NCBI GenBank assembly: GCA_017610385.1
Contig: JAFCCC010000008.1
Location: 1 to 38,784, forward strand
DNA from: Candidatus Nanohalarchaeota archaeon
GTDB lineage: Archaea > Nanohalarchaeota > Nanosalinia > Nanosalinales > JAFCCC01
Direction: 5' to 3'
DNA: 38,784 bases
This document shows, in pieces, positions 697 through 16,489 of the stretch. The notes under the pieces are model-generated. The model searched no databases and was not told where the DNA came from. It saw only the letters and a program-made list of their open reading frames with translations. Every line of letters starts with the position of its first letter. Within the stretch, counting starts at the first letter, position 1. The translations under genes were made by a program, and so were the position numbers.

Positions 697-2004
697 ATGA
701 GAAACTCAAAGGGATTCAGTTTGATAACTCTTGTTTTTGTTGTTGTAGTTGTGGTAATAGGAGGAATTGCGTGGTATATGAATAATTCTATTTCGGGTCA
801 GGGAATTTCTAGAGAGATTTTGGAAAATTTTAAATTACAGAAAGTGGAATTGGAAAACGAAAACTCAATATTATACTTAGAACAGGCTCTGTGGGATTCT
901 ACTGCAAATGCGTCACAAACAGTTTCAGATCTGGCAGGAAGAAATGTGACAAATGAAACAGACACTAATTTAACATATTGGCGATGCGATTTGGATGAAG
1001 TAAGTAATTCTGGAAGAGAAGTTACATACCAAATACCATCAATTGAGCGTGTTCAATTATCTTTACAAAACAAAACTATGACCTATCTTGAAAATATATT
1101 GAATCAATTACATGGAATAAGAGATGGGGTAATTTATGATGTGGGGGGTGTAAAATGTGCAGAAGTAGGATATAATACCCCCTTAGACAGCCCTTTAAAT
1201 TCTAAATATAAAACAGCGGGTATTATTAACAAAATAGATACAACTTTTGAGAGTTACAAAAGAGAGCGTGCTAATCTAACTTTCAATGACGATATAAGAT
1301 ATAACCGCTTCTGGTATATGTATACGATTATGGCTCGTTGGACTCAGGAACAGGATATGGAATCAGACATTTTAAGTGAGATGGCCAAGGTTTATGATTG
1401 GGTTGATGACGTTGTATGCACACCTAGTTGCACATGCCCTTGTCCTTATCAACCACTTTGTACTAGAATACCAATTAATTGGAGCACGCTAGTTAGACAT
1501 GCAGTAGACAAGGGTATTGAAAAGGGTGTTAATGAATTAGAGTCTGGTTCTCGTTATTTTAATGATAATAAGATTTCTTGTGGTTATGGGATTGAAATAG
1601 ATTACTATGACAATATTCCTTATATTACAAATGCAAGAATCGGGCGTTGTGGAAGCTGGGGTCAATGGTGTCTTATGTACTGCAGATTAGATTATGAATA
1701 CAATTTTGAAGGAGATATTGATATTTCTTGCACAGATCAACAATATCAATCAATTCCAAGAAAAGATTTAGAAAGACTAAACTGGAAAATTCGTTTTAAT
1801 GTTGAAGCCACAGACCCGCCAAATGAGGGACCATTCCCACCACCATGCGATAGTTTATTGTCTGGTTCATGTAAAACCATTGAGTCTCCGGATAGACTAG
1901 GTACTGATAAATTCCCAGAATGTACTGTCACAGATCCCGAATTTAAACTTTGTGATACCGGTGTAGACACCATTGGTACTTTATGGGGTGAAAATAATGC
2001 GTAA
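697..2004 (+). CDS. Pilin-like membrane-anchored protein with Cys-rich ectodomain
   Basis: 435 residues. The N-terminus MRNSKG-FSLITLV followed by a run of valines strongly resembles a type IV prepilin signal (bacterial prepilins are typically cut at G-FTLIE), although position +5 is Thr instead of Glu. The ectodomain has about 20 cysteines, several clustered (for example CTPSCTCPCP and CGSWGQWCLMYC), implying disulfides. It is far longer than a normal pilin, so it may be a minor pilin or anchored adhesin instead of a filament subunit. The last eight bases overlap the next gene. No enzymatic motif is visible. Confidence 0.7.
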   Translation: MRNSKGFSLITLVFVVVVVVIGGIAWYMNNSISGQGISREILENFKLQKVELENENSILYLEQALWDSTANASQTVSDLAGRNVTNETDTNLTYWRCDLDEVSNSGREVTYQIPSIERVQLSLQNKTMTYLENILNQLHGIRDGVIYDVGGVKCAEVGYNTPLDSPLNSKYKTAGIINKIDTTFESYKRERANLTFNDDIRYNRFWYMYTIMARWTQEQDMESDILSEMAKVYDWVDDVVCTPSCTCPCPYQPLCTRIPINWSTLVRHAVDKGIEKGVNELESGSRYFNDNKISCGYGIEIDYYDNIPYITNARIGRCGSWGQWCLMYCRLDYEYNFEGDIDISCTDQQYQSIPRKDLERLNWKIRFNVEATDPPNEGPFPPPCDSLLSGSCKTIESPDRLGTDKFPECTVTDPEFKLCDTGVDTIGTLWGENNA

Positions 2005-3571
2005 AGGAATAGCAATTCTTACTGAAATCATTTTATCTGTTGGAATTATTGCGGCAGGTGCTATTTTTTTCTTAGTGGGTTATGATTTTCTGGGACATGA
2101 AACCCAAACGGCATACAAATATACAGAATTACAATTTTTATTGGACATTGGAAATAGAATAGATACGTCATCTTCACAACTTGGAAGAACTACTGTAGAA
2201 TATCGTGTTCCTTTTGATGTTTATAGTTTAAAAGGAGAAAATAACATATTAACCTTACAAACTGCTGACAATCCCTCCCCAAGCCATACTTTATTAGAGT
2301 TCAATTTAAAAGATTTCAACATATCAGATCAAGATTATATTTGTCTTTACTTTAAAAATAAAACAGCGGTTGTTGAACCTGGAGAGTGCCCTAATTTAAA
2401 TGTTAGCGATGATTTCTGCGCAAATTTACGGTGTGTAGATGGAATTTGTACTTCAGATTACGGAGAAAACTGCTTAAGTCCAGATTGTAATTGTAGTGGA
2501 GGAATATGCCAACCACACTATAAAACAGAGTGTTTAGATTCTAAAGGGTGCGTTAAAGAAGAGTGTGTGGGTGTTTTAAACTATAGTAACACTTGTAAAT
2601 ATTCCTGGGAATGTGGAACTTTTGAAGATGATCAGATGAATTGTAAGCCTTCTAAAAATAACATATCAAATAAAGGATGTTGTCCGCCAGATGAAGTTTG
2701 GAATGGAACCCAATGTACGATTGGCTGTGTTGGAGATCCATGTGTAACGGGAGAAGAGTGTGGAACCGGTGAACAGTGTGGTACTTCTGATGATTTGGTT
2801 TGCAATCCGACAGACATTAATTTTACAGATTTTAATAAAGGTTGTTGTCCAGAAAATTTGCGTTGGAATGGAAGTACTTGTGTGGAAGCTTTGACTATTT
2901 GTAATGGTCCTCTTCCCGCAGCATTTGATTGGAGAGATAGATTAGGCAAAAATTGGTTACCACCAATTCGAGATCAAGGTCATTGTGGCTCTTGTTGGGC
3001 ATTTTCTGCTATTGGCACAATAGAAGGTGAATACCAGGTTGAATCATATAAACCAGATTCTGGAATTAATTTGGCAGAGCAAGAACTTGTTTCAAGTTGT
3101 TGTAGCTCTTGTGGTAGCTGTAGTGGGGGTTGGCCACACAAGGCGTTTAGTTATGTTAAAAGCAGTAATGTTGTAGATGAAACATGTTTTCCATACAGAG
3201 CAAGCAATATGGGATGTAATAAATGTGGTGATGCAAAAAATAAAGACTGGACCGTAAGTTCTTTCATTAGGGTAAGTGGTACACAGAATATTAAAAGAGC
3301 ATTAGCCTGTCGTGGGCCGTTATCTGTTGCATCAATGAATTGGGGGCATGCGATTGTTTTAGTTGCATATGATGATGATAGTGACATTTGTAGGGCACAC
3401 TATGGAAAAGATGGTTGTTGGGTTATAAGAAATAGTTGGGGTGTACGATCGGGAGTATTGCATGGAGGTGTGTGGCATGACAAAGGTTATGGTTATATTC
3501 CATATTCTGGTCATTCTAAGAGCGATATTGTGAATTATGTGTACTATGTAACAGATGTGAGAGAAGCATAA
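1997..3571 (+). CDS. Membrane-anchored papain-family (C1A) cysteine protease with Cys-rich stalk
   Basis: 524 residues from the ATG at 1997; an in-frame ATG at 1973 lies inside the previous gene, and 1997 places MRKG-IAILTE directly before the helix, matching the neighbours. Residues 5-27 form the anchor. Residues about 140-300 are Cys-rich, with a CNC cluster and two CCP...WNG...C motifs. From about residue 313 (FDWRD) comes a papain-like domain: oxyanion Gln327, catalytic Cys333 in CGSCWAF, His451 in WGHAIVL and Asn479 in RNSWG, so the catalytic set is complete. No typical inhibitory propeptide is apparent; the stalk takes its place. It is probably active on the cell surface. The stalk is related to that of the C25-like protease downstream. 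Confidence 0.9.
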   Translation: MRKGIAILTEIILSVGIIAAGAIFFLVGYDFLGHETQTAYKYTELQFLLDIGNRIDTSSSQLGRTTVEYRVPFDVYSLKGENNILTLQTADNPSPSHTLLEFNLKDFNISDQDYICLYFKNKTAVVEPGECPNLNVSDDFCANLRCVDGICTSDYGENCLSPDCNCSGGICQPHYKTECLDSKGCVKEECVGVLNYSNTCKYSWECGTFEDDQMNCKPSKNNISNKGCCPPDEVWNGTQCTIGCVGDPCVTGEECGTGEQCGTSDDLVCNPTDINFTDFNKGCCPENLRWNGSTCVEALTICNGPLPAAFDWRDRLGKNWLPPIRDQGHCGSCWAFSAIGTIEGEYQVESYKPDSGINLAEQELVSSCCSSCGSCSGGWPHKAFSYVKSSNVVDETCFPYRASNMGCNKCGDAKNKDWTVSSFIRVSGTQNIKRALACRGPLSVASMNWGHAIVLVAYDDDSDICRAHYGKDGCWVIRNSWGVRSGVLHGGVWHDKGYGYIPYSGHSKSDIVNYVYYVTDVREA

Positions 3572-3608: not shown

Positions 3609-4535
3609 ATGAATAAAATTAGGATAATTTTGCTTGTGGGCGCATTTGTTGTTTTTAGCAGTACGGCGTTTGGATTAAATAATCCGTCACAAGTGTATTG
3701 TACTGCCATGAATTACTCATATGTTATTGAGAATATACCAGAAGGAGAAGTTGGATACTGTTATTTTAATAATGGTGATTTCTGTGATGCGTGGGATTTT
3801 TTGATTGGAACTTGTGGTATGGCACATAGTTACTGTTTAATACAAGGATATGATATTGAAACTACTACAAATATGGAGATTTGTAATTCGGAAAACGCAG
3901 AAGAACAATGCTGTGCATGTATTTTAACCAATGGAACAGCAGTGGAAGTAACAAAATTAATGGGTCTCAGCTTTGTCGAAGGAGACTGTGGGGATCTTGT
4001 TTGTGTTTTGGGGGAAACATTTGAAAACTGCCCTGTAGATTGTCCCTCAGGAGGATTAGACCTTTTTTGTGATGGTGTAAAAGACAACATATGTGATCCA
4101 GATTGTAATATTAGTGAAGATGAAGATTGCAAACCTGTTTGCGGAAATGAAAAATGTGAACAAGGAGAGACTAATAAAAACTGCCCTGTAGATTGCGCTT
4201 TAACCTCGGTGTGTGGAAATGGTGTGTGCGAATCTGATGAAAATATTACTAATTGTAATATAGATTGTGAGAAAGAAGTCAGTTGTGGAAATGGTATTTG
4301 CGATGAAAAAGAAAGTTATCAAATTTGCCCAGAAGATTGTAAATCCGGACACAAGGACTTTTTTTGTGATGCAGTAAACGATGGTCGCTGTGATCCGGAT
4401 TGCAAGAATGGAGAAGACGTAGACTGTCAAATAAAAAGAAATTCTCATTGGTGGGTATATTCGATAGTTATTCTATCAATTTTATTTAGTCTGATTTTAT
4501 TGGTTAGAAAAAGCAAGGTACGTAAAAATGCATAA
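3609..4535 (+). CDS. Secreted, C-terminally anchored protein with CGNGxCE cysteine repeats
   Basis: 308 residues from the ATG at 3609; an in-frame TTG at 3600 is less likely. There is a Sec-type signal peptide (about residues 1-22, ending STAFG), so unlike its neighbours it lacks the Lys-Gly anchor. A C-terminal helix (about 280-300) is followed by a basic tail. The middle holds at least three repeats of the form CGN-x-x-CE-x-x-E-x(5)-C-x-x-DC, plus two copies of a D-x-FC-D...CDPDC module. The acidic, Cys-paired repeats suggest metal-stabilised or disulfide-stabilised surface modules. The last eight bases overlap the C25 protease gene. Function unknown. Confidence 0.75.
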   Translation: MNKIRIILLVGAFVVFSSTAFGLNNPSQVYCTAMNYSYVIENIPEGEVGYCYFNNGDFCDAWDFLIGTCGMAHSYCLIQGYDIETTTNMEICNSENAEEQCCACILTNGTAVEVTKLMGLSFVEGDCGDLVCVLGETFENCPVDCPSGGLDLFCDGVKDNICDPDCNISEDEDCKPVCGNEKCEQGETNKNCPVDCALTSVCGNGVCESDENITNCNIDCEKEVSCGNGICDEKESYQICPEDCKSGHKDFFCDAVNDGRCDPDCKNGEDVDCQIKRNSHWWVYSIVILSILFSLILLVRKSKVRKNA

Positions 4536-6594
4536 GAAAGGGATGGTGCAGGGATTTGTAATTGCGATGGCTGCATTTGTAATTGCTGCACTAACAATTT
4601 TTTTAGTATTTAGATATTTTTCAATGACAAGATATCCTTTAGATTCAGAACAAGTTGTGCAGGGATCTGACAAAGAAGTTGCATTTCAGTTAGCAAAATT
4701 AATTGACTATTGTTGGGAAGAAAATAATTATGGTGCAGGGAATTTAGAACAAGATTGTTTTTTAGTTACAATCAATAGTGAAAAAAATCTGAGTGCTACA
4801 TCAATTAAAAGTCAGATAAGTTATCCTCAAATAAAAATTAAATCTTTAAATTTTACTGGTGGTGAAAGCGTGAAAGCCAAAATAATTTACCATCCGGAAA
4901 ATGGAACTATTGAAATCAAAGGTTTTATGGAATTATTAAATGGTATTTGTCAACCACAATATGGAGAAGATTGCTATTTCCCAGACTGCAATTGTACAGA
5001 ATTAGGAATCAGTGATATTTGCCTGCCTTCTTATACTCCTAACAAAATAACCGCAGTAGGTTGCGTTAAACCAGACTATGTACATATCTTAAACCGTGGT
5101 TCTCAATGTAAATATAATTGGGAATGCGAAGAAGATTTAACCTGCGGGCAAACTGTTCGTTTTGATGACTTTGAATTTGCGTGTTGCCCAAATGGAACTG
5201 GGTGGAATGGAAATGAATGTATAAAATTAAAAGAAATTGGAGAAGAATGTGAAGAAACAGAAGAATGCGAAATAAATCTGAATTGCAATAATGTATCTCT
5301 AAATTTTACAGAGTATTCTAAGGTGTGTTGTGTTGGTCAAAAGCACTGGAATGGTTCTGCTTGTGTCTATGTGTATGGAGAAATATGTTTTGAGAACCAA
5401 GAATGTGATTTGGGCTTAAAGTGTAATTCAAATCCAGAAAAGACTGGAAAAAACTGTTGCCCGCCAGGAGAAAAATGGAATGGTTCTGCTTGCGAATTAA
5501 AAGAAGTTGATGTGCTGGTTGTTGCATTAAAAACCAATATGAAAAAAGTTTATTCTGATGCGGATATTGAAAACTTAGAAAATAAAGTTGACGAATATAT
5601 TTCAACAATTTCAACAACAGATGATCTTGTTGGCCTTTTTGTATATTTGGATGAAGATTTAGTAAAAAATATTATTGGCTCTAAAGTTACGAACCCAGGC
5701 GACTGGAATAATATCGATGGCATTTTAGATCAATTAATTCCCAAATTGAAAGCGAAATATTTGATTATTTTGGGGGGGTATAATCGATTTGTTCAGGCAC
5801 CAATTGGCTCTTCTCAGGGTTCAGATGACCCATATGGAGATACAGATCGAGACGGTTCATATTTACCAGATGTAAGTGTAGGAAGAATTCCAGACCCAAA
5901 TAATGGGGACCTGCAAGTACTTTTAAACGGTTTAAATACAGCTATAAGCGTACATAAAGATGGAGGTTTAACATTGGACAGTCATGTAGCACCAATAATG
6001 GGTTGCGGGGGATATGACAATAGAAATTGGAACTCTGGAAAATGTTTTTGTCAAGCCATTTGGCCATCAACTTGCGTAGCATGTGGATCCTGTTGTGGGT
6101 GCATAAATTCAGCGAGTATGTCTGGAAAAGGATTTGTAATGATTTTATCACATGGTCCAGGACCCTCTTCTACAGAACTATATAAAGGGGGGTGTTTGGA
6201 TGTCAGACCAAATTTTATTACTAGTTTAAACGTGGATACGGCGTTTTGGATTTCAATGAGTTGTGGTGGAGGTCATTTGAAATTAAAAAGTCAAACTTCA
6301 GGATCAATGGCTATGACTTTTTTAAAGAAGGGGGGTGCGATTTATGTGGGTAGCACGGATTTGAATTACGGGGGCCTAGGCGGTTGCAGTGTACCTGGCG
6401 GTGATTCTTGTATTGGTTCTCTTTACGTTGAATTTATTAAAAGATTACAAGTGGGTAAAAGTGTTGGGGCTGCCTATCGTGAAGGTAAAAACTATTATTA
6501 TGGTAGATATAACTGTGGTGCAGGCAAAAGTTACCAGACCCATATAAATTGTTTGTATGGGGATCCTACCCTAAAAATTAAAAGTATGTGGTAA
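4528..6594 (+). CDS. Membrane-anchored gingipain-like (C25, caspase-fold) cysteine protease
   Basis: 688 residues. MHKKG-MVQGF precedes a helix (about 8-30). Residues about 135-325 form a Cys-rich stalk with a YGEDCYFPDCNC motif and three CC(P/V)...WNG...C repeats, related to the stalk of the papain-like protease upstream. From about residue 328 (VDVLVVAL) a C25/clan CD domain follows: a Rossmann-like strand LIILGGYN, DVSVGRIP, probable catalytic His542 in ILSHG, probable catalytic Cys579 in SMSCGGG, then GGAIYVGST and a C-terminal LYGDPTL, all typical of gingipain relatives. The His-Cys spacing of 37 is close to that of gingipains. An Ig-like C-terminal domain is absent. Likely a surface protease; specificity unknown. 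Confidence 0.88.
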   Translation: MHKKGMVQGFVIAMAAFVIAALTIFLVFRYFSMTRYPLDSEQVVQGSDKEVAFQLAKLIDYCWEENNYGAGNLEQDCFLVTINSEKNLSATSIKSQISYPQIKIKSLNFTGGESVKAKIIYHPENGTIEIKGFMELLNGICQPQYGEDCYFPDCNCTELGISDICLPSYTPNKITAVGCVKPDYVHILNRGSQCKYNWECEEDLTCGQTVRFDDFEFACCPNGTGWNGNECIKLKEIGEECEETEECEINLNCNNVSLNFTEYSKVCCVGQKHWNGSACVYVYGEICFENQECDLGLKCNSNPEKTGKNCCPPGEKWNGSACELKEVDVLVVALKTNMKKVYSDADIENLENKVDEYISTISTTDDLVGLFVYLDEDLVKNIIGSKVTNPGDWNNIDGILDQLIPKLKAKYLIILGGYNRFVQAPIGSSQGSDDPYGDTDRDGSYLPDVSVGRIPDPNNGDLQVLLNGLNTAISVHKDGGLTLDSHVAPIMGCGGYDNRNWNSGKCFCQAIWPSTCVACGSCCGCINSASMSGKGFVMILSHGPGPSSTELYKGGCLDVRPNFITSLNVDTAFWISMSCGGGHLKLKSQTSGSMAMTFLKKGGAIYVGSTDLNYGGLGGCSVPGGDSCIGSLYVEFIKRLQVGKSVGAAYREGKNYYYGRYNCGAGKSYQTHINCLYGDPTLKIKSMW

Positions 6595-7700: not shown

Positions 7701-8135
7701 ATGAAAAGCAAAGGTTCAATGTCTTTAGAAATGATTGTTAAATGGATCATTATGTTGGTAGTAGTTTTGGTGGCCATTGGATTAATTACGGTTTTTAGTG
7801 GGAGAATTAAAGAGTCTGTTCAAAATTTATTTCATAAAAACAATGATCAATCAGTTTATGTTCGTGTAGGTCTTATTGGTACAGATCAACAATTAAGCAA
7901 AATCGCGGAATTAATAGATCTTTGTTACAATGCAAAATTAGGTCAAAGCAGGGATGAAACATGCTATATTGTCCATAACAAAAATGGCGATTTTTCAATC
8001 ACGAAAGAACAAATAAAAGAACGCCTACCAGGCGGCTTGGCAGATAAAATGATATTTAAAGATGACGAATTTGATTCAGAAACTATTGTAATTTCTTATG
8101 GGTGGGTAGATGAAACAGTTGTATTGGAACAATAA
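7701..8135 (+). CDS. Type IV pilin-like protein (Glu+5 present)
   Basis: 144 residues. MKSKG-SMSLE has the classical prepilin arrangement: Lys-Gly cleavage site, Glu at position +5 of the mature chain, then about 20 hydrophobic residues. The ectodomain contains LIDLCYNAKLGQ and a second cysteine (ETCYIV) likely to form a disulfide. Its size is right for a small pilin or minor pilin. It follows the frameshifted gene by one base. A prepilin peptidase would be needed for processing; none lies in this window. Confidence 0.72.
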   Translation: MKSKGSMSLEMIVKWIIMLVVVLVAIGLITVFSGRIKESVQNLFHKNNDQSVYVRVGLIGTDQQLSKIAELIDLCYNAKLGQSRDETCYIVHNKNGDFSITKEQIKERLPGGLADKMIFKDDEFDSETIVISYGWVDETVVLEQ

Positions 8136-8622
8136 AGGATCTATTTCTATAGAATTGATTGGCAAATGGGTTCTAGGAATTATTATTATTGCAGTTGGAA
8201 TTGGACTAATTTATGCCCTATTGAAACCAACTAATACGGATTCCATTCATAAACAAATTGCAGAAATGGTTCGTGGCAGCGAAATTCCTATTTGTCGCGC
8301 ATATGATAACTTAGAAAAGATAAACGAGATTGATTTTCAAGCCCTGTGTTTTGCGCGAGCTACAGATAAATGCAATAGTTCGGAGAATAATATAACCTTG
8401 GATTTTGTTTTAAGCAAGGATTTTTTTGAAAAGTTTCTTGTAGATTTTAATTTTGTTTCTGGAAAAGAACCATTAGTATTCTACAAAGATGCTTGTGAAA
8501 GTTTTACTGGTTATGATGGATTTATTGTACAATCTGAAAAAAATAAGATATTATTTCTAAAAGGCGAAAAAATTAAAATAGCTAATTTAAATCCTGGGGT
8601 AGGAATCTGTCCGTTACAATAA
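8110..8622 (+). CDS. Type IV pilin-like protein (Glu+5 present)
   Basis: 170 residues, overlapping the previous gene by 26 bases. The ATG at 8110 gives MKQLYWNNKG-SISIE, again Lys-Gly with Glu at +5; a TTG at 8119 is an alternative start. The N-terminal helix (about 15-35) is clearly related to that of the preceding gene (GSxSxE then KW), so the two probably arose by duplication. The ectodomain has five cysteines. Tight overlap implies coupled translation and similar expression. Confidence 0.7.
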   Translation: MKQLYWNNKGSISIELIGKWVLGIIIIAVGIGLIYALLKPTNTDSIHKQIAEMVRGSEIPICRAYDNLEKINEIDFQALCFARATDKCNSSENNITLDFVLSKDFFEKFLVDFNFVSGKEPLVFYKDACESFTGYDGFIVQSEKNKILFLKGEKIKIANLNPGVGICPLQ

Positions 8623-8654: not shown

Positions 8655-9170
8655 ATGCAAAAAGGCATGAGTGTGGCCATGTGGATCTGGATTATCGGGG
8701 GTGTTTTAATCGCGGGTCTGTTGTTTGTAATGGTTGTAAATAATATGGGGTTTTTTACTTCCCAGAAATCCAGAGAAGCCATGTTAGATCAATTCAGGTT
8801 GAATATTGTAAATAAAGCTGACTTGATTTGTGCCTCGAGTATAGGAAGTGTAAATCCCTCTTCGGTTGAACTCAAAAATGTTCAGGCAATATATGCTGCA
8901 GAAAAACCTAGAAATGTTGATCCAAAAGCACCACTATACATAACACAAAAAAATTATTCTATTGGTAAATATCTGTGCATGTCTTTTGATAATGAAGAGT
9001 ATCGCTGTAAAGAAATGACTTGTGAGATAAATATGACGTACATTGGAACCCCATTAAAAACTTCTGATATGTATAAAATAGGAATAAGTGATGGTTCATT
9101 TGAATTTGATCTGAGTATTCAAAAAAATGAACATAGTAAGGTATTAATTTCTGCGACACATCGTCCATAA
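8655..9170 (+). CDS. Pilin-like membrane-anchored protein
   Basis: 171 residues. MQKG-MSVAM and a helix (about residues 5-30) follow the operon's pattern, without Glu+5. The ectodomain has four cysteines, including a pair in YRCKEMTC, and ends in a beta-rich segment. It is separated from the previous gene by 32 AT-rich bases ending in a T-run, so it may have some independent expression. It is the last Lys-Gly-anchored gene of the block before a new promoter at about 9180. Confidence 0.68.
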   Translation: MQKGMSVAMWIWIIGGVLIAGLLFVMVVNNMGFFTSQKSREAMLDQFRLNIVNKADLICASSIGSVNPSSVELKNVQAIYAAEKPRNVDPKAPLYITQKNYSIGKYLCMSFDNEEYRCKEMTCEINMTYIGTPLKTSDMYKIGISDGSFEFDLSIQKNEHSKVLISATHRP

Positions 9171-9208: not shown

Positions 9209-9598
9209 ATGGCCGCACCTCAAAAACCAGAATTTGAAATAGACGTAATGGAACGTTTGAATAGCGCGTCTAGAAGAATTAGACAGCTTGAAGAAAATAT
9301 TAGAAGTATAAGAGATCATTTAACCGGTCTAGAAAATGAATTCGTCAAACAGAAGGAAGATAGGAATTCTTTTAATACGAATTTTAATAAAAAAGAGGAA
9401 CAAATTAAAATAGCCATAACTAATTTAGGTGTAGAAGTTAAGAATATCAATAGACGATTAAGAAAAGTTGCAACTAATCGAGAACTTCAAGAGATTGAAA
9501 GTTACATTCAAATTTTTAATCCATTAAAGAGCAGCTTTGTAACAAAAAAAGAGGTTCAAAAAATGATAGAAAAATATCGTGGAGGAGATCTTGAGTGA
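9209..9598 (+). CDS. Cytoplasmic coiled-coil protein
   Basis: 129 residues, highly charged, with no signal peptide or membrane helix. Heptad-like patterns run from about residue 13 to 100 (for example RIRQLEENIRSIRDHLTGLE), and the C-terminus is basic. Soluble coiled-coil proteins occur next to archaeal surface-appendage genes (archaellum FlaC/D/E-type proteins), but I see no specific signature of those families. The stop overlaps the next start (GTGA), so the two products are probably co-translated and may interact. Confidence 0.65.
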   Translation: MAAPQKPEFEIDVMERLNSASRRIRQLEENIRSIRDHLTGLENEFVKQKEDRNSFNTNFNKKEEQIKIAITNLGVEVKNINRRLRKVATNRELQEIESYIQIFNPLKSSFVTKKEVQKMIEKYRGGDLE

Positions 9599-10386
9599 AA
9601 TTTAAGTTATTTGGTAGATTAAAACAAAATGCAAAAAAAGAACCTAAAATAGAAGCGAATTTAAAACCTGCTGAAGAAATACCAGTTAATGAAGTTAGAC
9701 GAATGAGTTCTCAGGGAGTTTCTCAAGGAGAGATTGTTAATCAATTAAGAAATACTGGGTATACTTATTCTCAAATAAATAAGGCGATGAATGAAGCAGT
9801 TAAAGAAACAACAAAAATGGGTGGAATTCAAAATCAAACGCCTATGCAAAGTCAGATGTCCTCAGGTATGCCACAACCGGAAATAAATACTCAATTACCG
9901 CCAAAGGCAACACCACAGGTTCAAAATAACCAATCGAATGAGCGGTCATTTGAATACCCGCAAAATATACAATATACTGGACCCTCTAAAGAAGAACTTG
10001 GATTACAAAGCCAGGATGCATTTGCTGCCGCAGCATCACAACAGCAACAATTTTTGGTTCCTGAAAATACAGAAGAATTAATAGAGGTTATGATTGCTGA
10101 AAAGATGATTGATGTTGAAGATGAATTTGAAAGATCGCATAATAAAATTTCTGATCTTGAGAAAATTATTCTAGAGTTAAGAGACACAGTAAAAGAACTT
10201 CAGATTAGAAAAGATGAGGATGAAAAAAAGTTCTTGGGAAAGGTTATTGAAATTGAAGATTTTTTAGAAGGATCTCAAAGTAGACTTGGTGGATTAGAAA
10301 AAGCTGTTCAACAAGTTTTGCCTACTTTAGTTGAAAATGTTCGTGATTTAACAGGAGTAGTTGAGGATGCAAAGAAAAAAGAGTAA
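9595..10386 (+). CDS. Cytoplasmic protein with UBA-like helical motif and coiled coil
   Basis: 263 residues from a GTG overlapping the previous stop, with a GGAGGAG Shine-Dalgarno just upstream. Residues about 35-70 (VSQGEIVNQLRNTGYTYSQI...) look like a small three-helix UBA-like bundle. A Gln/Asn/Pro-rich linker follows (about 75-150), then a charged coiled coil (about 180-260). No membrane segment. Together with the 9209 product it could be a cytoplasmic scaffold or adaptor. Function unknown; the assignment rests on composition and motif shape. Confidence 0.65.
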   Translation: MKFKLFGRLKQNAKKEPKIEANLKPAEEIPVNEVRRMSSQGVSQGEIVNQLRNTGYTYSQINKAMNEAVKETTKMGGIQNQTPMQSQMSSGMPQPEINTQLPPKATPQVQNNQSNERSFEYPQNIQYTGPSKEELGLQSQDAFAAAASQQQQFLVPENTEELIEVMIAEKMIDVEDEFERSHNKISDLEKIILELRDTVKELQIRKDEDEKKFLGKVIEIEDFLEGSQSRLGGLEKAVQQVLPTLVENVRDLTGVVEDAKKKE

Positions 10387-10400
10387 TTTCTAGTTTAATT

Positions 10401-10949
10401 TTATGGGCTATCTCCGCCACCGTTTTTAGTAACAAGCCAGATAACTAATACAATTACTCCGAGCATTATTGCTATTCCGAAAACACTTAAAAATGCTTCG
10501 GAAGAGAAAAACGAACCAAATGCCGTGCCAACACTACTAGCAGTCATTGAAATGTTAAACACCAAAAAAACAATCATTGTGATAATTAAAATAGCTAAAA
10601 TCACGAAAATAATCCATTTGGCTGTTTTTTTATCAGTACTCATTAAATCTTCTAATTTGATATTAAAGAAACCCATTAAAATTGCAATGGCCAATAAAGC
10701 GACTAAAACAACCGCAAATCTAGAAAAAAATATAGTAAAGAAATCTGCAGGAATAAACGTATAAATGCCGCCTAGAACCAGCAAAGAAACACAAAGTGAA
10801 ATTATTAAATTAACTCCTTTATTGTCTCCAAATGCCTTTACATATTCTAAAATCCCATAAACTACTGCGAAAACTAACAACATTGGCAATAAAAAGTTAT
10901 AAAAGCCGAAATTTCTCAAGTTTTCCACAAAAAATTCAAATCCTGCCAT
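10401..10949 (-). CDS. Four-helix membrane protein, paralogue of the next gene upstream
   Basis: 182 residues from the ATG at 10949; a GTG at 10964, two bases after the upstream gene's stop, is a possible alternative. About four or five hydrophobic helices span the protein. The segment FGFYNFLLPMLL...YGILEY...FGDNKG matches SGFYHVVLPIIL...YGILEM...FGDTTKG in the 10966-11553 product, so they are paralogues in tandem. Small polytopic proteins of this kind lack enzyme motifs and may form a membrane platform or channel. The gene converges on the coiled-coil gene at 10386. Confidence 0.7.
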   Translation of the reverse strand: MAGFEFFVENLRNFGFYNFLLPMLLVFAVVYGILEYVKAFGDNKGVNLIISLCVSLLVLGGIYTFIPADFFTIFFSRFAVVLVALLAIAILMGFFNIKLEDLMSTDKKTAKWIIFVILAILIITMIVFLVFNISMTASSVGTAFGSFFSSEAFLSVFGIAIMLGVIVLVIWLVTKNGGGDSP

Positions 10950-10965
10950 GTTTGTACAGCTCACT

Positions 10966-11553
10966 TCACTTTCGTGCAGCTTTCTTTGCTATTCTTTTTT
11001 GAGTACCCTCAGCACTCGTATCCAAAAATGTCCAGACGACTAAAGCAACTAGCCCTACCACTACCAATAACAATACAATTGTTTGTGCACTAATGGCCAT
11101 ATGTGGTAAGTTAAAATTTATACCGAAAATTCCTATGCCGCCAGATTGCCTAAACAGCATGAAAATAACAAATGCGCAGATTGCAAAAATCAGCCATTTT
11201 ATCCATGCTTTATCACCAAATACAGTCGTAAAATTCTCGCCTTTAATCACACCATATAAAATAAAGAGGAATAATACTCCAACCAAAATAACCGCCAAAT
11301 AACCAGACATATTGACAACAATAGTTGAGAACCAGATCAAATAACTAGTTGAATAAGTTATAAAAAGAGTTAAAATAATAGAAATTATAATATTTATTTT
11401 GTGGCCTTTTGTAGTGTCTCCAAAAATATTAATCATTTCAAGAATTCCGTATAAAATGACTACTAAAAGAATTATTGGTAAAACCACGTGATAAAAACCG
11501 CTTTGTCCTAAAATTCCTTGTTGCCCCAGCCATTGTTCGAAATTAAATGTCAT
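10966..11553 (-). CDS. Polytopic membrane protein, paralogue of the 10401 product
   Basis: 195 residues with about four or five transmembrane helices and a basic C-terminus (KRIAKKAARK) that is probably cytoplasmic. It shares the GFY-x(3)-LP...YGILE...FGD-x-x-KG signature with the downstream paralogue. It is first in its minus-strand unit, and a TATA-like element (CTTTTATAAGG on the minus strand) lies about 27-37 bases before its start. It is divergent from the 11665 membrane gene, suggesting coordinated expression of the membrane cluster. Function unknown. Confidence 0.7.
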   Translation of the reverse strand: MTFNFEQWLGQQGILGQSGFYHVVLPIILLVVILYGILEMINIFGDTTKGHKINIIISIILTLFITYSTSYLIWFSTIVVNMSGYLAVILVGVLFLFILYGVIKGENFTTVFGDKAWIKWLIFAICAFVIFMLFRQSGGIGIFGINFNLPHMAISAQTIVLLLVVVGLVALVVWTFLDTSAEGTQKRIAKKAARK

Positions 11554-11579
11554 TTTTCAATAATAATATTAGCTTAAAC

Positions 11580-11642
11580 TCCTTATAAAAGATTCGATTA
11601 TTGTATTACATGCGAACTACACCATGCGGAATATATATATAC
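11580..11642. promoter_or_regulatory. Divergent promoter region of the membrane-protein cluster
   Basis: Two TATA-like elements face away from each other: CCTTATAAAAG at 11580-11590 (read on the minus strand for the gene starting at 11553) and an alternating AT run ending near 11640 (for the gene starting at 11665). Both sit about 25-30 bases before the start codons, giving near-leaderless transcripts. Confidence 0.45.
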
Positions 11643-11664
11643 GCCTTAAAAACAATATCATTCT

Positions 11665-12765
11665 ATGAAAAAATTCTCATCACTTTTTTTACTGGGTGTT
11701 TTAATCATAAGCTTTACAAATTTGGTTTCTGCTTCATGTCCTATGACTGGAAAACCAGAGATTACTAGTCTTAGTTCTATCAGCAATTTTATGACTCAAT
11801 TTACCTCAAATTTTTTCAATGGTGTGTGTTGGGCAGAACATGCGCTCGATGCGATAATTTTCTTTATTGTTCCTATTATATTTTTGATTGTTTTATTGAA
11901 AGCAATTATGGATGAAATTAATATATTTAATGGAAAAGTAACTTGGGCTCTGTCTATCTGCATCGCAATCATGGCGATTCCAATGGGAATTTATTCTGGT
12001 TTACTTACTGTTATGGCAAATATTGGAGCAATATTTGCCACGGTGGTGTTCTTTGCAGTTGTATTTGTAATTGGATTAAGTAAATGGTATAGAAAAAAAG
12101 CTAAAGAATATGACTTCTTAATGGGAAACAGATTTTTAACTGTGTTGGTAGTTCATTCTCCTCTAATTGTTTTATTTACTCTCACAGGAATCTGGCTTGG
12201 TACAATAAAACTGGGAACTAATTATTTGTTCCAGTTTGCCGCAGAAGGCATTCAAACAGGTAGCTCAGGAATGATTTCTTTGTATGCGTTATCATTTATT
12301 GCGATCATAACTGCTGTTTTATTGTTGGTTTTGAAAGAAGGTAGAAAAAATTGGAAGGGAGTTATTATGGTCGGAATTTTGGCGGGAATTGCAACAATAG
12401 TTTTTTCAAATTTAAGTGTTGGGGATTTAAAAGCACAATCTTCTACTTTGGGAGCTGTCTTTGGGTTTATGATTGGTATGGGATTTGCTTTGTTAGAGTG
12501 GGGAAGAAAACATTCTTTAAAAATTAAAGCAATTGATGACCAAGCAAAAGAAGGTCTTGATGGAATTCAAAGAAACATTGAACAAGCTAAATCCGACTTA
12601 AAAATAGCTAAAAAGAATTTAGAGTCTGCTACTGGAGAAGCTGCTGTGGGTTATAGGGATCAAATAATTTACATAGAAAAAAGGCTTGAGGATCTTAAAT
12701 ACAGTCGTCAAGAATTATTAGATACTGCAAATGCCGCAGCCATGAAAAAAATATGGAATAAATAA
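11665..12765 (+). CDS. Polytopic membrane protein with cytoplasmic coiled-coil tail
   Basis: 366 residues. A cleavable-looking signal (about 1-23, ending VSA before SCPMTG) is followed by a short Cys-containing segment and about seven hydrophobic helices. The last 90 residues (from about 280) are charged and helical with heptads (IQRNIEQAKSDLKIAKKN), probably a cytoplasmic coiled coil. Size and layout match the next gene (365 residues, C-terminal coiled coil), though direct sequence similarity is weak. The topology suggests a membrane platform protein; no transport-family motif is evident. Confidence 0.7.
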   Translation: MKKFSSLFLLGVLIISFTNLVSASCPMTGKPEITSLSSISNFMTQFTSNFFNGVCWAEHALDAIIFFIVPIIFLIVLLKAIMDEINIFNGKVTWALSICIAIMAIPMGIYSGLLTVMANIGAIFATVVFFAVVFVIGLSKWYRKKAKEYDFLMGNRFLTVLVVHSPLIVLFTLTGIWLGTIKLGTNYLFQFAAEGIQTGSSGMISLYALSFIAIITAVLLLVLKEGRKNWKGVIMVGILAGIATIVFSNLSVGDLKAQSSTLGAVFGFMIGMGFALLEWGRKHSLKIKAIDDQAKEGLDGIQRNIEQAKSDLKIAKKNLESATGEAAVGYRDQIIYIEKRLEDLKYSRQELLDTANAAAMKKIWNK

Positions 12766-12806
12766 ATCAACCCATCTTTTTATTCTAAAAAGTTTAAGGT
12801 AATTCT

Positions 12807-13904
12807 ATGGCAATTATTTGTTGGCTTGGATGGATCATGGTTGGACCGTTTTGGTTATTCTCGTGGATAGTAACCAAGTTAATGAATGGTTTTCCGCAAA
12901 TAAATGTCCCTCAGGCATATGGAACTTGGGTATCTTTAGTTTTATCGGTTATTTTGGTGTGGGCACTTTTTTATGCGATTATTAATGCGGTTACAGAAGG
13001 AGCATATCAACAAATGAATAAAAAGTTCAGAAAACTTGCTAATAATGTTCTAGGGTTTTTGGCTGGTTTTACTATACTCGCCTTAATTAGAATTTTGCTA
13101 GACTTTGAATCCACATGCCACCAGAATAAATTACCAGGAATTCCTGATTTAGCAGTCATAAAAGCGCAGATTATGACGTGGATTGCGACGGCAAATCAAT
13201 TTTTGTTGAGTGACGGCGTATTTTTTGCGTTTAATAGAATTATTTTTCCTTTAGCGTTTCTTGTAGGATTTTATGCATTTATTAGCTCTTTAGCTGTATT
13301 CAGAAAGAAGTGGGTTAATTTTGTTTTATCGTTGTGTATTTCAGTAATGATGATAGTTAGTCCTGCTTTGGAAATAATAACGAATTTCTTTTTGAGTAGT
13401 ATTATTAACTTACTTCTTGGTGGAGCAATATTGTATTTGATATTGAAATCTTGGAAACTTTTATTTGTGTATTTAAAAAACCAGCTAAAGGAAAAGAATC
13501 AGGTTATGACGATAACGAACCATATTACGACAGCATTCTTTTTCATAATATATTACATAGTGGTGGGTGTTTTAACGGGAATTTTAGGATTTGGCAACCC
13601 TGTATGGAATATTATGTGGGGGGCCATGACAGGATTTATTTTGTTTGGTTTGGCATATTACAAGTATTATCTTGCGCCATTCTTCAAATACAAGAATTTA
13701 ATAAGGTATCGGGATGAAATAAATGCTGAACTTAAAAATGCCGAAGCAAAGATGAATACTGCAGAAACAGAGGTTGCTAGAAAAGCGTATCAAGACGTGT
13801 ATATGAAAATATTAATGAAAAAGGAGAACTTGGAAATGGGTTTGGAGGACGTTCAAGAGGCAATAACTGCAATTAGAATGGGGTTGAAGCGCCGTGCCAA
13901 CTAG
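12807..13904 (+). CDS. Polytopic membrane protein with cytoplasmic coiled-coil tail
   Basis: 365 residues with about seven transmembrane helices and a C-terminal charged coiled coil (about residues 298-360, RYRDEINAELKNAEAKMNTA...). The architecture is the same as that of the 11665 product. Its stop overlaps the next start (GTG at 13894). With no known transporter motif, I infer a structural membrane component working with the preceding protein through the coiled coils. Confidence 0.7.
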   Translation: MAIICWLGWIMVGPFWLFSWIVTKLMNGFPQINVPQAYGTWVSLVLSVILVWALFYAIINAVTEGAYQQMNKKFRKLANNVLGFLAGFTILALIRILLDFESTCHQNKLPGIPDLAVIKAQIMTWIATANQFLLSDGVFFAFNRIIFPLAFLVGFYAFISSLAVFRKKWVNFVLSLCISVMMIVSPALEIITNFFLSSIINLLLGGAILYLILKSWKLLFVYLKNQLKEKNQVMTITNHITTAFFFIIYYIVVGVLTGILGFGNPVWNIMWGAMTGFILFGLAYYKYYLAPFFKYKNLIRYRDEINAELKNAEAKMNTAETEVARKAYQDVYMKILMKKENLEMGLEDVQEAITAIRMGLKRRAN

Positions 13905-14250
13905 TATTGGTATTCCGTTTTTTACATTTCTCTTAGAAATTATATTAATTTTGATTATAACTAAACTAACAGACCGAAAAGTGACTTATGAAAGCGTTGC
14001 TACCAATGGAATAATCACAACGATGGCTGCGGGTACTTTATTATTTGATAAAAAACCAGCAGGATTTTTGCTTTTGGCATATGCGTCTTTGTTGTTAACA
14101 GCAGGTGTAAGAGCGCATGAAGACAAAAAATTTGGATTTGAAGATAAATTTAGTAAGGCGCTTAAATTTTTTGGGCATTATTTAACTGTTAGTATTGTTC
14201 TTACAGTAGTTCTTATTTTAGCGTATATTGTGCCTTTATTTTTAGACTAA
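13894..14250 (+). CDS. Small polytopic membrane protein
   Basis: 118 residues from a GTG that overlaps the previous stop by 11 bases, so translation is probably coupled. Three or four hydrophobic helices are separated by short charged loops (TDRKVTYES, RAHEDKKFGFEDKFS). No family recognised. It is the last gene of this plus-strand membrane cluster and is followed by an AT-rich stretch with a T-run near 14270-14285. Confidence 0.62.
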   Translation: MPTSIGIPFFTFLLEIILILIITKLTDRKVTYESVATNGIITTMAAGTLLFDKKPAGFLLLAYASLLLTAGVRAHEDKKFGFEDKFSKALKFFGHYLTVSIVLTVVLILAYIVPLFLD

Positions 14251-14652: not shown

Positions 14653-14898
14653 TTAATTTTCTTTGAGAAAGCCATATCTTAAACCGATTTCTAGCCAACT
14701 AAAGCTCCATAAGAGTGCTTCAAAAGAGCGAATAAAATCCTTCTGTTCAAAAAAATGTTGAGAATCTTTGTAATATGCTTTTGTATTTTTCAAAAAATCG
14801 TCTCCTTTTTCTGTATTGATTACTGTTTTCAAACGAGTTTCTAATATGTCTGTCCATTTTTCAATTTCTTTTTTAAGTTTAATTTCTGTGTCATCCAT
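14653..14898 (-). CDS. DUF357-like small helical protein
   Basis: 81 residues from the ATG at 14898, one base after the dph5 stop; an in-frame TTG at 14907 would overlap dph5. The sequence is all-helical: an N-terminal charged helix (KLKKEIEKWTDILETRLKTV), then AYYKDSQHFFEQKDFIRSFEALLWSFSWLEIGLRYGFL. This length and the closing W-x-W/GLR pattern resemble the archaeal DUF357 family. That family has no established function; adjacency to a diphthamide gene hints at a translation-related setting. Confidence 0.65.
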   Translation of the reverse strand: MDDTEIKLKKEIEKWTDILETRLKTVINTEKGDDFLKNTKAYYKDSQHFFEQKDFIRSFEALLWSFSWLEIGLRYGFLKEN

Positions 14899-14899
14899 T

Positions 14900-15619
14900 T
14901 TAATCAATTAAACTAAGATATTCTTGTTCTTTATCGTCTAATCTTCCTGGAATTATCAAAGAGTGTGGTAAATCACCCAACACACTTTTCTTTAAGTTTT
15001 CAAAAGAATCATAAATGATTGTCTGATTTGGACTTCCTAATTTACATAGAATCATTAGTTTTTTTCTTTGTAATATTTTTTTATGATCTAACTGCTCTAA
15101 AATTTCAAGTGCCTCTTTTGCACTTAAGCCTATATCTAATAAGACCAACGAATGCATTTTATTTTCTAAATTAAATTTGATTATTTCGTAAGGAGATTCT
15201 GGGTAAGAATACTTCTGATATTTTTTTGGTAGGGTGGTTGTTCTTCCAAATTTATATAGAGAAAGTCCAGTTTCTGCGATTATAGTAAATATCGAACAAC
15301 TATGAATTATTTCAAAATCAATATTTTTTGATTTACATTCCGCTAACATTTCAAAGTGCGTTGTTGCAGTCAAAGGATCTCCGGAAACTAACAAAGCGAT
15401 GTTTTTATTGGCGGCTTCTTGCAAAAACATTAGATTTTCAATGGAATCTCTATTTAAAATTTTAATTTTTTTACTGATTTTTTTTTCTAATTCTTTTAAA
15501 TTATACATATTGAGGTTCGTATAAAATTCAGCACAAACTAAATCAGATCGTTTTAGTTTATCTAAGCCTTTTAGAGTTAAATCTCCGTTACTCATTCCTA
15601 AACCGATTAAATAAAACAT
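14900..15619 (-). CDS. dphB: Diphthine synthase
   Basis: 239 residues. It is a SAM-dependent methyltransferase of the tetrapyrrole-methylase fold that methylates the modified histidine of elongation factor 2 during diphthamide synthesis. Visible signatures are the N-terminal FYLIGLGMSNGDLTLKGLD, the SAM-binding LVSGDPLTATTHFE at about residues 77-90, SIFTIIAETGL..YKFGRTTTLP, and the C-terminal LIIPGRL-x-D-x-E. Length is slightly short but complete for the archaeal family. It is divergent from a Trm5-type gene, so EF2 and tRNA modification genes share one intergenic region. Confidence 0.92.
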   Translation of the reverse strand: MFYLIGLGMSNGDLTLKGLDKLKRSDLVCAEFYTNLNMYNLKELEKKISKKIKILNRDSIENLMFLQEAANKNIALLVSGDPLTATTHFEMLAECKSKNIDFEIIHSCSIFTIIAETGLSLYKFGRTTTLPKKYQKYSYPESPYEIIKFNLENKMHSLVLLDIGLSAKEALEILEQLDHKKILQRKKLMILCKLGSPNQTIIYDSFENLKKSVLGDLPHSLIIPGRLDDKEQEYLSLID

Positions 15620-15670
15620 AATTATAATTTGGGGGTAACATTTAACAACCTTTTTCTTTATTCTATACTT

Positions 15671-16489
15671 ATGAATTTAAAAGAAAAGCTGAAAGACAGA
15701 TTAACTGAAAAAGAATTATCTTATTTAATTAGATCTTTTGAAATTCTAGGAGATATTGCAGTAATTCAAGTTCCAAAACTTTTAGAAAATAAAAAAATGA
15801 TAATCGCTCGAGCGGTTAAAGAACAACATAAACATATTAAAACCGTTCTAAGAAAAATCGAAAAAGTTGATACAGAATTTAGAGTTCCGCGTTATGAACT
15901 TTTAATTGGAACAGGAACAGAAACAATTTATAAAGAGAATGACTGCCGTTATACCTTAGATCCAACTTTGGTTTACTTTTCTGAGAAATTAGGAACAGAA
16001 AGAGCGAGGATTTTGGAACAAGTTAGGGAAGGGGAAACAATTCACGCATGGTTTGCGGGTGTTGGACCGTATCCTATTCTAATTGCAAAAAATAAATCTG
16101 TTAAAATTATTGCAATTGAAAAAAATCCGAAGGCGTGCAAATATCTAGAAAAAAATGTTCTTTTGAATAAAGTACAAGATAAAATTAAAATTTATGAAGG
16201 AGATGTGCGGGAAATTGCGCCCAAAATAGGTGTTTTGGCAGATCGAACAATTATGCCACTTCCAAAAACATCAGAATTATTTTTGGATTTAGCATTGACA
16301 TATACAAAAACAGGTGGAATAGTTCATTACTATTGTTTTGGTACTGAAGATGAATTGGAAATAATTAAAGCTAAAATTAAAGAAGAATCTAAAAAACAAA
16401 AAAAAGAGGTGGATTTTTTAGGGGCGTACAAATGTGGGGTTTTGGGTCCTAAAATATATCGGTTCTGTATTGATTTTCAAATAAATTAA
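15671..16489 (+). CDS. trm5: Trm5/TYW2-family tRNA methyltransferase (probable tRNA guanine-37 N1)
   Basis: 272 residues from the ATG at 15671; an in-frame TTG at 15629 would fall in the divergent promoter. The N-terminal part has RYELLIGTGTETIYKEN and LDPTLVYFSEKLGTER, typical of Trm5/Taw2. The SAM-binding loop AWFAGVGPYPI lies at about residue 126 and the catalytic-region motif is DRTIMPLPKTSELFLD, where most Trm5 enzymes have NLP in place of PLP. The likely role is m1G37 formation, which protects reading-frame fidelity; a wyosine-pathway role cannot be excluded. Confidence 0.85.
   Translation: MNLKEKLKDRLTEKELSYLIRSFEILGDIAVIQVPKLLENKKMIIARAVKEQHKHIKTVLRKIEKVDTEFRVPRYELLIGTGTETIYKENDCRYTLDPTLVYFSEKLGTERARILEQVREGETIHAWFAGVGPYPILIAKNKSVKIIAIEKNPKACKYLEKNVLLNKVQDKIKIYEGDVREIAPKIGVLADRTIMPLPKTSELFLDLALTYTKTGGIVHYYCFGTEDELEIIKAKIKEESKKQKKEVDFLGAYKCGVLGPKIYRFCIDFQIN

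Follow-up and report, generated by a model that had tools for sequence, protein, structure and literature searches.

Seven genes of a nanohaloarchaeal contig appear to encode a membrane and coiled-coil scaffold inherited with a pilus motor

What does a compact cluster of seven genes for membrane and coiled-coil proteins do in the genome of a nanohaloarchaeon? The cluster lies at positions 9209-14250 of contig JAFCCC010000008.1 (C2 in our numbering); the whole contig, 38,784 bases of a 0.79-megabase (Mb) archaeal genome, is called the window below, and its source falls in a nanohaloarchaeal order. The question bears on the DPANN archaea, which are widespread and small-genomed and whose contact machinery is, to our knowledge, mostly unknown. 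Every cultivated DPANN archaeon reportedly needs contact with a host, as the text of Hamm et al. 2024 has it (PMC11291902). An earlier note on the window had taken the cluster for a membrane platform with cytoplasmic tethers, placed beside an operon of pilins and proteases. We find that the seven genes appear to encode an uncharacterised scaffold of membrane and coiled-coil proteins, inherited with a pilus motor, and we consider it reasonably probable that these are accessory inner components, a scaffold in the membrane and the cytoplasm, of a type IV filament machine of DPANN archaea. The open reading frames (ORFs) of the cluster exist as noted earlier, and the cluster is real:

9209..9598, plus strand: F3, a predicted cytoplasmic coiled-coil protein of 129 amino acids (aa), a conserved partner gene by BLAST clustering and profiles
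9595..10386, plus strand: F1, a predicted cytoplasmic coiled-coil protein of 263 aa with the motifs of the family alignment and no transmembrane segment
10401..10964, minus strand: the F0 copy adjoining F1, a predicted five-helix membrane protein of 187 aa with a GTG start (an ATG at 10949 is possible)
10966..11553, minus strand: the second F0 copy, a predicted five-helix membrane protein of 195 aa, 31% identical to its neighbour
11665..12765, plus strand: a polytopic protein of 366 aa with a signal-like N-terminal helix, an F0-like helical hairpin and a predicted cytoplasmic coiled-coil tail
12807..13904, plus strand: a polytopic protein of 365 aa with 7 predicted helices and a charged, coiled-coil-like tail, a probable member by hhalign
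13894..14250, plus strand: a small membrane protein of 118 aa with 3 predicted helices, a member by position only

The genes at 9209-9598 and 9595-10386 share 4 bases, and that at 13894-14250 shares 11 with the 12807 gene. The tandem paralogues exist as a pair, with their strand corrected: they are minus-strand genes that converge with those of F3 and F1 and diverge from the 11665 gene, and since they run between plus-strand genes the cluster comprises at least three transcription units. The earlier description of the whole cluster as paralogous pairs holds for these five-helix proteins (E 6e-14) and is not shown for the other pairs. None of the seven proteins has a Pfam match over the cut-off; for the 13894-14250 protein no Pfam match is better than E 0.03.

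How widely is the set found, and in what company? A two-sequence F0 profile matched 42 of 149 archaeal genomes, and an 85-sequence profile matched 107 of 394 at an expectation (E) value of 0.001. Strong matches, at 1.3e-9 or better, account for 94 of the 394 genomes, the remaining 13 being at 2e-5 or weaker. The strong F0 genomes are mostly of 1.6 Mb or less, with two larger ones, G282 (2.1 Mb) and G196 (3.8 Mb, 6% contamination). Around F0 matches we chose 80 stretches from 77 other genomes, three of which were sampled twice. The first batch drew on 37 of the 41 other genomes found with the two-sequence profile, and the second, of 40, was chosen only by F0 match; with the window's own genome included, 78 of the 94 strong F0 genomes are covered. 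All fetched stretches except one (79 of 80) hold F0, and 68 of the 79 carry at least two F0 labels (33/39 in the first batch, 35/40 in the second), where copy numbers are labels per stretch, not strict tandem runs, and a few labels are larger relatives.

Two further families recur beside F0 and the coiled-coil families F1 and F3, namely the ATPase F4 and the TadC-like platform protein F2. By profile, F1 is present in 59 of the 79 F0 stretches, F3 in 45, F4 in 51, F2 in 44 and any of these in 60; the two batches gave similar lists (27, 21, 24, 23 and 28 of 39 in the first; 32, 24, 27, 21 and 32 of 40 in the second). With the ATPase beside F0 in 51 of 79 stretches, the homologues are not mostly found away from pilus genes. 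Where more than 5 kilobases (kb) are available on both sides, F1 or F4 is present in 38 of 45 stretches. The arrangement is regular as well: F1 converges on F0 in 47 of 55 close cases (22/25 and 25/30 in the two batches), and F4 and F3 are divergent in 37 of 38 (19/19 and 18/19). The usual layout is an F2-F4 pair divergent from an F3-F1 pair, which converges on the F0 array. At least 26 family-level groups show this layout, of which the window keeps the F3-F1/F0 half. The neighbour maps come from a greedy ORF caller, and some of their short ORFs and starts are wrong. As a control, 20 arbitrary 20-kb stretches of eight such genomes contained F0, F2, F3 or F4 in no case and F1 in one; that lone match is a two-helix protein of 266 aa with a similar helical module at its start.

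The association extends to whole genomes. The F4 subtype is found in 89 of the 94 F0 genomes and in 5 of the 300 others, and F3, at a strong cut-off, in 90 of the 94 and in none of the 300. Within the window's own order, F0 is present in 23 of 28 genomes, and the five that lack it also fail the F3 and F4 thresholds. Because the layout is kept across distant families, and because several genes are devoted to it in genomes below 1.5 Mb, the module is likely to be important to its bearers.

F4 and F2 point to the kind of machine. F4 is a T2SSE ATPase (E 2.9e-13 at locus L058), with archaeal GspE (2oap), CpaF and FlaI as its nearest solved relatives, and F2 is a T2SSF platform protein (E 1.1e-10, same locus); a type IV filament's T2SSE motor and T2SSF/TadC platform are thus both represented. 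By a hydropathy rule, which picks up ordinary signal peptides as well, F2 is followed by proteins with a pilin-like N-terminus in 24 of 34 loci; the rule selects 60 of the 110 genes there and 18 of 388 genes of random stretches. The platform proposed for the cluster has the expected company, its homologues adjoining an ATPase, a TadC-like platform and pilin-like proteins; the physical platform itself is something we infer. The partner conserved from genome to genome is this ATPase/TadC-like pair, which lies outside the window.

The window's genome carries its matching ATPase on contig C8 (L082 4447-10458). Its gene reads through, encoding 2,003 aa with two intein stretches, and is flanked by two F2-type genes (L082 2275-4386 and 10461-12521). 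Both match the F2 profile at E 1e-160 or better; the T2SSF model scores one of them at E 4e-5, below Pfam's cut-off, and the other not at all at E 0.001. The divergent extra F2 copy occupies the place that F3 holds in other loci. This genome has three further T2SSE loci, whose matches to the F4 profile are much weaker (1e-31 to 1e-35). F4 genes of 1,244-1,958 aa occur in relatives (e.g. L043, L066, L132, L135, L140 and L144), and from their lengths these too may contain inteins. We also observe a lower-scoring F4 group (about 500-800 bits) in genomes without detectable F0, such as G046, G117 and G179; some of these genomes show weak F3 matches, and the group may represent a sister system whose membrane parts have diverged.

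What, then, is F0? Each paralogue of the window has five predicted transmembrane helices. Over 85 F0 sequences, positive charge sits in loops 1-2 and 3-4 and in the C-terminal tail and scarcely in the other loops, a pattern from which we predict five membrane spans with the N-terminus out and the C-terminus in. The helices are nearly charge-free, and Pro26 is the sole nearly invariant residue. At E 0.01 no Pfam or NCBIfam family is matched consistently: the commonest Pfam family, DcuA_DcuB, is hit by 3 of the 85 members, as is the commonest NCBIfam family. Kinship with the FlaJ/TadC proteins, a comparison that had been suggested for the cluster, is not detectable, and we rejected F0 as a TadC relative: hhalign gives F0 against the TadC-like F2 a probability of 0.3%, and T2SSF is absent from the 17 Pfam families matched by any of the 85 members at E 0.01. 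As to a relationship with TrbL, no TrbL entry appears among the matches of the 85 members at E 0.01 or in those of the window proteins; these were general Pfam scans, with no direct TrbL profile comparison, and a distant homology may exist.

An AlphaFold2 model of the 10966-11553 protein (mean predicted local distance difference test score, pLDDT, 78.8; predicted TM-score, pTM, 0.45) gave three Foldseek matches, the best at E 8. Aligned to 20 chains with VIA-align, it reached a best Z of 6.4 with a G-protein-coupled receptor, inside the chance range for helical matches, and a viral structure library returned 33 matches with a best E of 0.54. A profile search of PDB sequences found a designed binder (E 7e-5) and the five-helix subunit J of NADH-quinone oxidoreductase (E 1.2e-4, 25 bits, 144 residues). 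Both were set aside by judgement as composition matches, subunit J because no complex I neighbours are recognised in F0 loci. The earlier remark that no known transporter is matched agrees with these results, there being no consistent hit to an unrelated family in the Pfam, NCBIfam or structure scans.

F0 copies appear to be position-specific in part. In a tree of 146 copies, in which only neighbours from other families were counted, the copy adjoining F1 is nearest to another F1-adjoining copy in 36 of 51 cases, and on this ground the first F0 position, beside F1, looks anciently distinct. Larger proteins beside the F0 arrays bear an F0-like hairpin, with hhalign probabilities of 71.7-96.4% for five groups; ten unrelated membrane proteins taken as controls do not exceed 0.2%.

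The coiled-coil proteins F1 and F3 were described earlier as two cytoplasmic proteins from overlapping genes, and this agrees with what we see: neither has a predicted transmembrane helix, and a heptad test favours a coiled coil. In this simple, home-made test with 500 shuffles per protein, 0/500 shuffles reach the 9209 protein and 9/500 the 9595 protein, as against 430/500 for DphB and 34/500 for a Trm5-like protein, the two controls. BLAST clustering places F3 in 23 of 41 sequences and F1 in 27 of 41. A genome scan for the 9595 type gave 16 loci, of which 14 are from nanohaloarchaea, one from a woesearchaeote and one from another archaeon. F3 is conserved at its ends (RR-x-R..LEE at the start, P..S.FVT..EV at the end). 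F1 runs from an N-terminal M-x-F-x-LFG-x-L motif through a small helical repeat-like module and a P/Q-rich linker to the coiled coil; the helical module also appears to begin two membrane proteins with several helices, L039_14 (392 aa) and L187 5270-6070 (266 aa).

A transmembrane or N-terminal hydrophobic segment is found in none of 47 F3 members and, among 61 F1 profile matches, in a single one, which is a longer protein of another kind with four transmembrane helices. Since export signals are absent, both proteins should be cytoplasmic. The 9209 protein matches Enkurin at E 1.6e-4, just under the cut-off, along with 24 further weak Pfam matches, all of which we regard as generic coiled-coil matches. 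The archaellum family FlaC_arch (PF05377) scores the 9595 protein below the cut-off (E 0.79) and the F1 protein of G012 at 20.2 bits (cut-off 27.8), and has no match in the window's genome. Profile-to-profile comparison gives 57.9% for F1 and 44.9% for F3 against FlaC and at most 2.8% for control families, a result obtained with nine FlaC rows and multi-sequence controls of which only two look coiled-coil-like. These comparisons are suggestive of a kinship with FlaC that falls short of membership. F1 and F3 of the window also resemble each other, though only at the profile level (hhalign 84%; BLASTP E 0.013), for which shared coiled-coil character could account.

The two polytopic proteins downstream had been described as seven-helix proteins ending in coiled coils. 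By hydropathy the 12807 protein does have seven helices, and the 11665 protein has eight, signal peptide included; their tails are reached by 10/500 and 1/500 shuffles, respectively, in the heptad test. Compared directly, the two show a weak resemblance, with a BLASTP E of 6e-4 (a two-sequence comparison) and an hhalign probability of 2.0-2.5%. Each resembles one and the same family found beside F0 arrays elsewhere (87.9% for 11665, 42.1% for 12807, best control for the latter 5.7%). This family (L041_26, L042_05 and L042_06) is one of the five hairpin groups, and its members share with the 11665 protein a signal-like helix at the start and a charged, helical tail at the end. A joint profile of the 11665 protein and this family finds the 10966 protein at E 1.1e-6; among the matches listed it also reaches F1/F3 (E 0.001-0.03) via the common coiled-coil tail. 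Given the 87.9% match and the reach of the joint profile to 10966, the 11665 protein is counted as a relative, and the 12807 protein as a probable one. Searched as a single sequence, the 11665 protein was found in 1 of 60 genomes, its own, and the 12807 protein has no confident homologue in 30 genomes; its best foreign match (E 0.0047) contains an internal stop.

How might these parts work together? Several F0 paralogues and proteins of the 11665/12807 type would assemble around the TadC-like platform, and a coiled-coil collar of F1 and F3 would couple the resulting F0 ring to the ATPase. The model is the archaellum, in which the cytoplasmic proteins ArlC/D/E are thought to couple ring to ATPase, and we infer by analogy that F1 and F3 are cytoplasmic parts working in the same manner. 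With the archaellum motor (FlaI/ArlI, FlaJ/ArlJ, FlaC/D/E) the cluster and its partners share a T2SSE ATPase, a T2SSF platform and cytoplasmic coiled-coil partners; however, the likeness of F1/F3 to FlaC is weak at the profile level, the window's genome lacks a FlaC match, and we know of no F0 counterpart in the archaellum. The filament may serve attachment to other cells, and the appendage is probably one for gripping them, as suggested by what Hamm et al. propose for such loci and by DPANN biology. A bolder version, in which F0 and its coiled-coil-tailed relatives are a new class of machine part centred on DPANN, a hetero-oligomeric ring of several five-helix subunits of ancient distinctness that makes an ordinary pilus motor both grip another cell and open or stabilise a contact zone through which material passes, strikes us as unlikely.

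The kind of machine is already known, and the novelty lies in its parts. Like the Tad/CpaF-TadC systems and the archaeal type IV pilus clades, it adds membrane and cytoplasmic extras particular to the lineage to a core of ATPase and TadC, but the membrane extras described by Makarova et al. 2016 are other archaeal clusters of orthologous genes (arCOGs) than these, and their text names Nanoarchaeota once and DPANN, Nanohaloarchaea and Parvarchaeota not at all (PMC4858521). The DPANN pilus islands of Makarova et al. 2019 similarly pair TadC with uncharacterised proteins; as that text describes them, these are taken for diverse pilins, whereas F0 has five predicted helices and is no pilin (PMC6393860). 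Closest are two loci for CpaF, TadC and coiled-coil proteins that Hamm et al. report as conserved in cluster-2 DPANN; they agree with ours in the phylum Nanohaloarchaeota, the CpaF-type ATPase, the TadC platform and the coiled-coil proteins (PMC11291902). As described there, they differ from the present set, which has five-helix tandem paralogues, a fixed layout and coiled coils predicted to be cytoplasmic; no multi-helix partner family is named, and the main text never uses the word 'transmembrane' (PMC11291902). In the open-access texts consulted we found no mention of the five-helix family. Naming this family together with the coiled coils predicted to be internal provides concrete, testable parts of a DPANN contact apparatus.

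Several observations weigh against reading the cluster as an inner part of a filament machine. The cut-offs for the F4 subtype and for F3 were placed at score gaps after the data had been seen, and the genomes behind the co-occurrence counts share ancestry and are not independent, so that Fisher P values computed from these counts should not be read as probabilities. The five F0-less genomes of the window's order are incomplete (78-85%), and as the F0, F3 and F4 genes are neighbours, an assembly gap may explain their joint absence. Nineteen of the 79 stretches lack F1-F4, including seven whose flanks exceed 5 kb on either side; G380, 97% complete, has F0 without F3 or F4, and the F4 subtype occurs without F0 in five genomes, three of which belong to a single family. 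The ATPase and platform of the window's own genome are on a different contig (C8). The parts themselves are also imperfectly defined: the F0 model is of middling quality at its pTM of 0.45 and that of the 11665 protein is poor (pLDDT 55.5), one control (5.7%) comes at least as near to the 12807 protein as F0 itself does (3.8%), and in the F0 tree no more than 77 of 146 copies share their position with the neighbour from another family (48.9 expected), with a copy from the same locus closer in 32 of 146.

Among other explanations, we regard as rather unlikely that F0 is a translocation channel coupled to the pilus, VirB6/TrbL- or competence-like, for DNA uptake or transfer between symbiont and host. 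Multiple small polytopic paralogues per machine, larger relatives bearing a signal peptide and a match of the TrbC/VirB2 model to 1 of 85 F0 members (E 0.0011) would suit a channel, but the 85 members gave no TrbL match, the helices lack conserved charge, and a nuclease, ComEC or VirB4-like partner was not seen among the conserved neighbours. It is improbable that the genes serve an unrelated envelope process and owe their place near pilus genes solely to an inherited gene order: although the ATPase is missing from the window and housekeeping neighbours (DphB, Trm5-like and an 84-aa ORF) are common to 11-12 of 41 sequences, the ATPase subtype co-occurs genome by genome even where it lies on a separate contig, as here, and the divergent/convergent layout returns in group after group.

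Improbable too, in our judgement, is that the coiled-coil proteins are host-binding surface or tip proteins with F0 as their export or anchoring device. Hamm et al. saw coiled-coil proteins of such loci, found across cluster-2 DPANN with CpaF and TadC, by proteomics and, as their text puts it, likened them to a viral attachment protein, reovirus sigma-1 (PMC11291902). Phylum, partners and gene set agree with those loci, and their proteins may be F1 and F3. Surface coiled coils of this kind call for an export signal or anchor, which the F3 and F1 families lack throughout save for the one aberrant F1 match, and the profile likeness to FlaC argues for the cell interior, although export by a signal-free route is conceivable. 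If F1 and F3 are inner parts of the filament machine, as we favour, the search for the host-binding tip shifts elsewhere.

Upstream of the cluster, the plus strand encodes a series of proteins that each have one N-terminal helix:

7701-8135, 8110-8622 and 8655-9170, plus strand: three pilin-like genes, directly upstream of F3, each with an N-terminal transmembrane helix
210..7202, plus strand: an operon of N-anchored proteins, including two proteases, linked to the scaffold by position only

In each of the three pilin-like proteins the single helix is preceded by a short charged start; Flp1_like scores the 7701 protein at E 0.0019, below Pfam's cut-off, and a homologue of the 8655 protein (family F17) adjoins F3 in two relatives' loci. 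The proteases are papain-type (1973-3571, Peptidase_C1, E 3.6e-32) and gingipain-type (4528-6594, Peptidase_C25, E 1.4e-11). That they belong with the system is unsupported, as the four large N-anchored proteins of relatives that were scanned have no Pfam match. Both have a pilin-like N-terminal helix and Cys-rich stretches, and they are possibly borne on or near the filament.

On its other side the cluster is adjoined by genes for the 84-aa ORF, DphB and a Trm5/TYW2-like methyltransferase (14653-16489), which recur in 12, 12 and 11 of 41 sequences, other families included. On contig C3 the window's genome also has a second pilus locus (L080 9256-15793), which comprises an ATPase gene of its own, a pair of short TadC genes, a chaperonin-like gene and a gene for a coiled-coil-like protein of 188 aa (F3 profile E 0.0018); it resembles 'Locus 1' as Hamm et al. 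give it in the legend to their Fig. 4 (PMC11291902).

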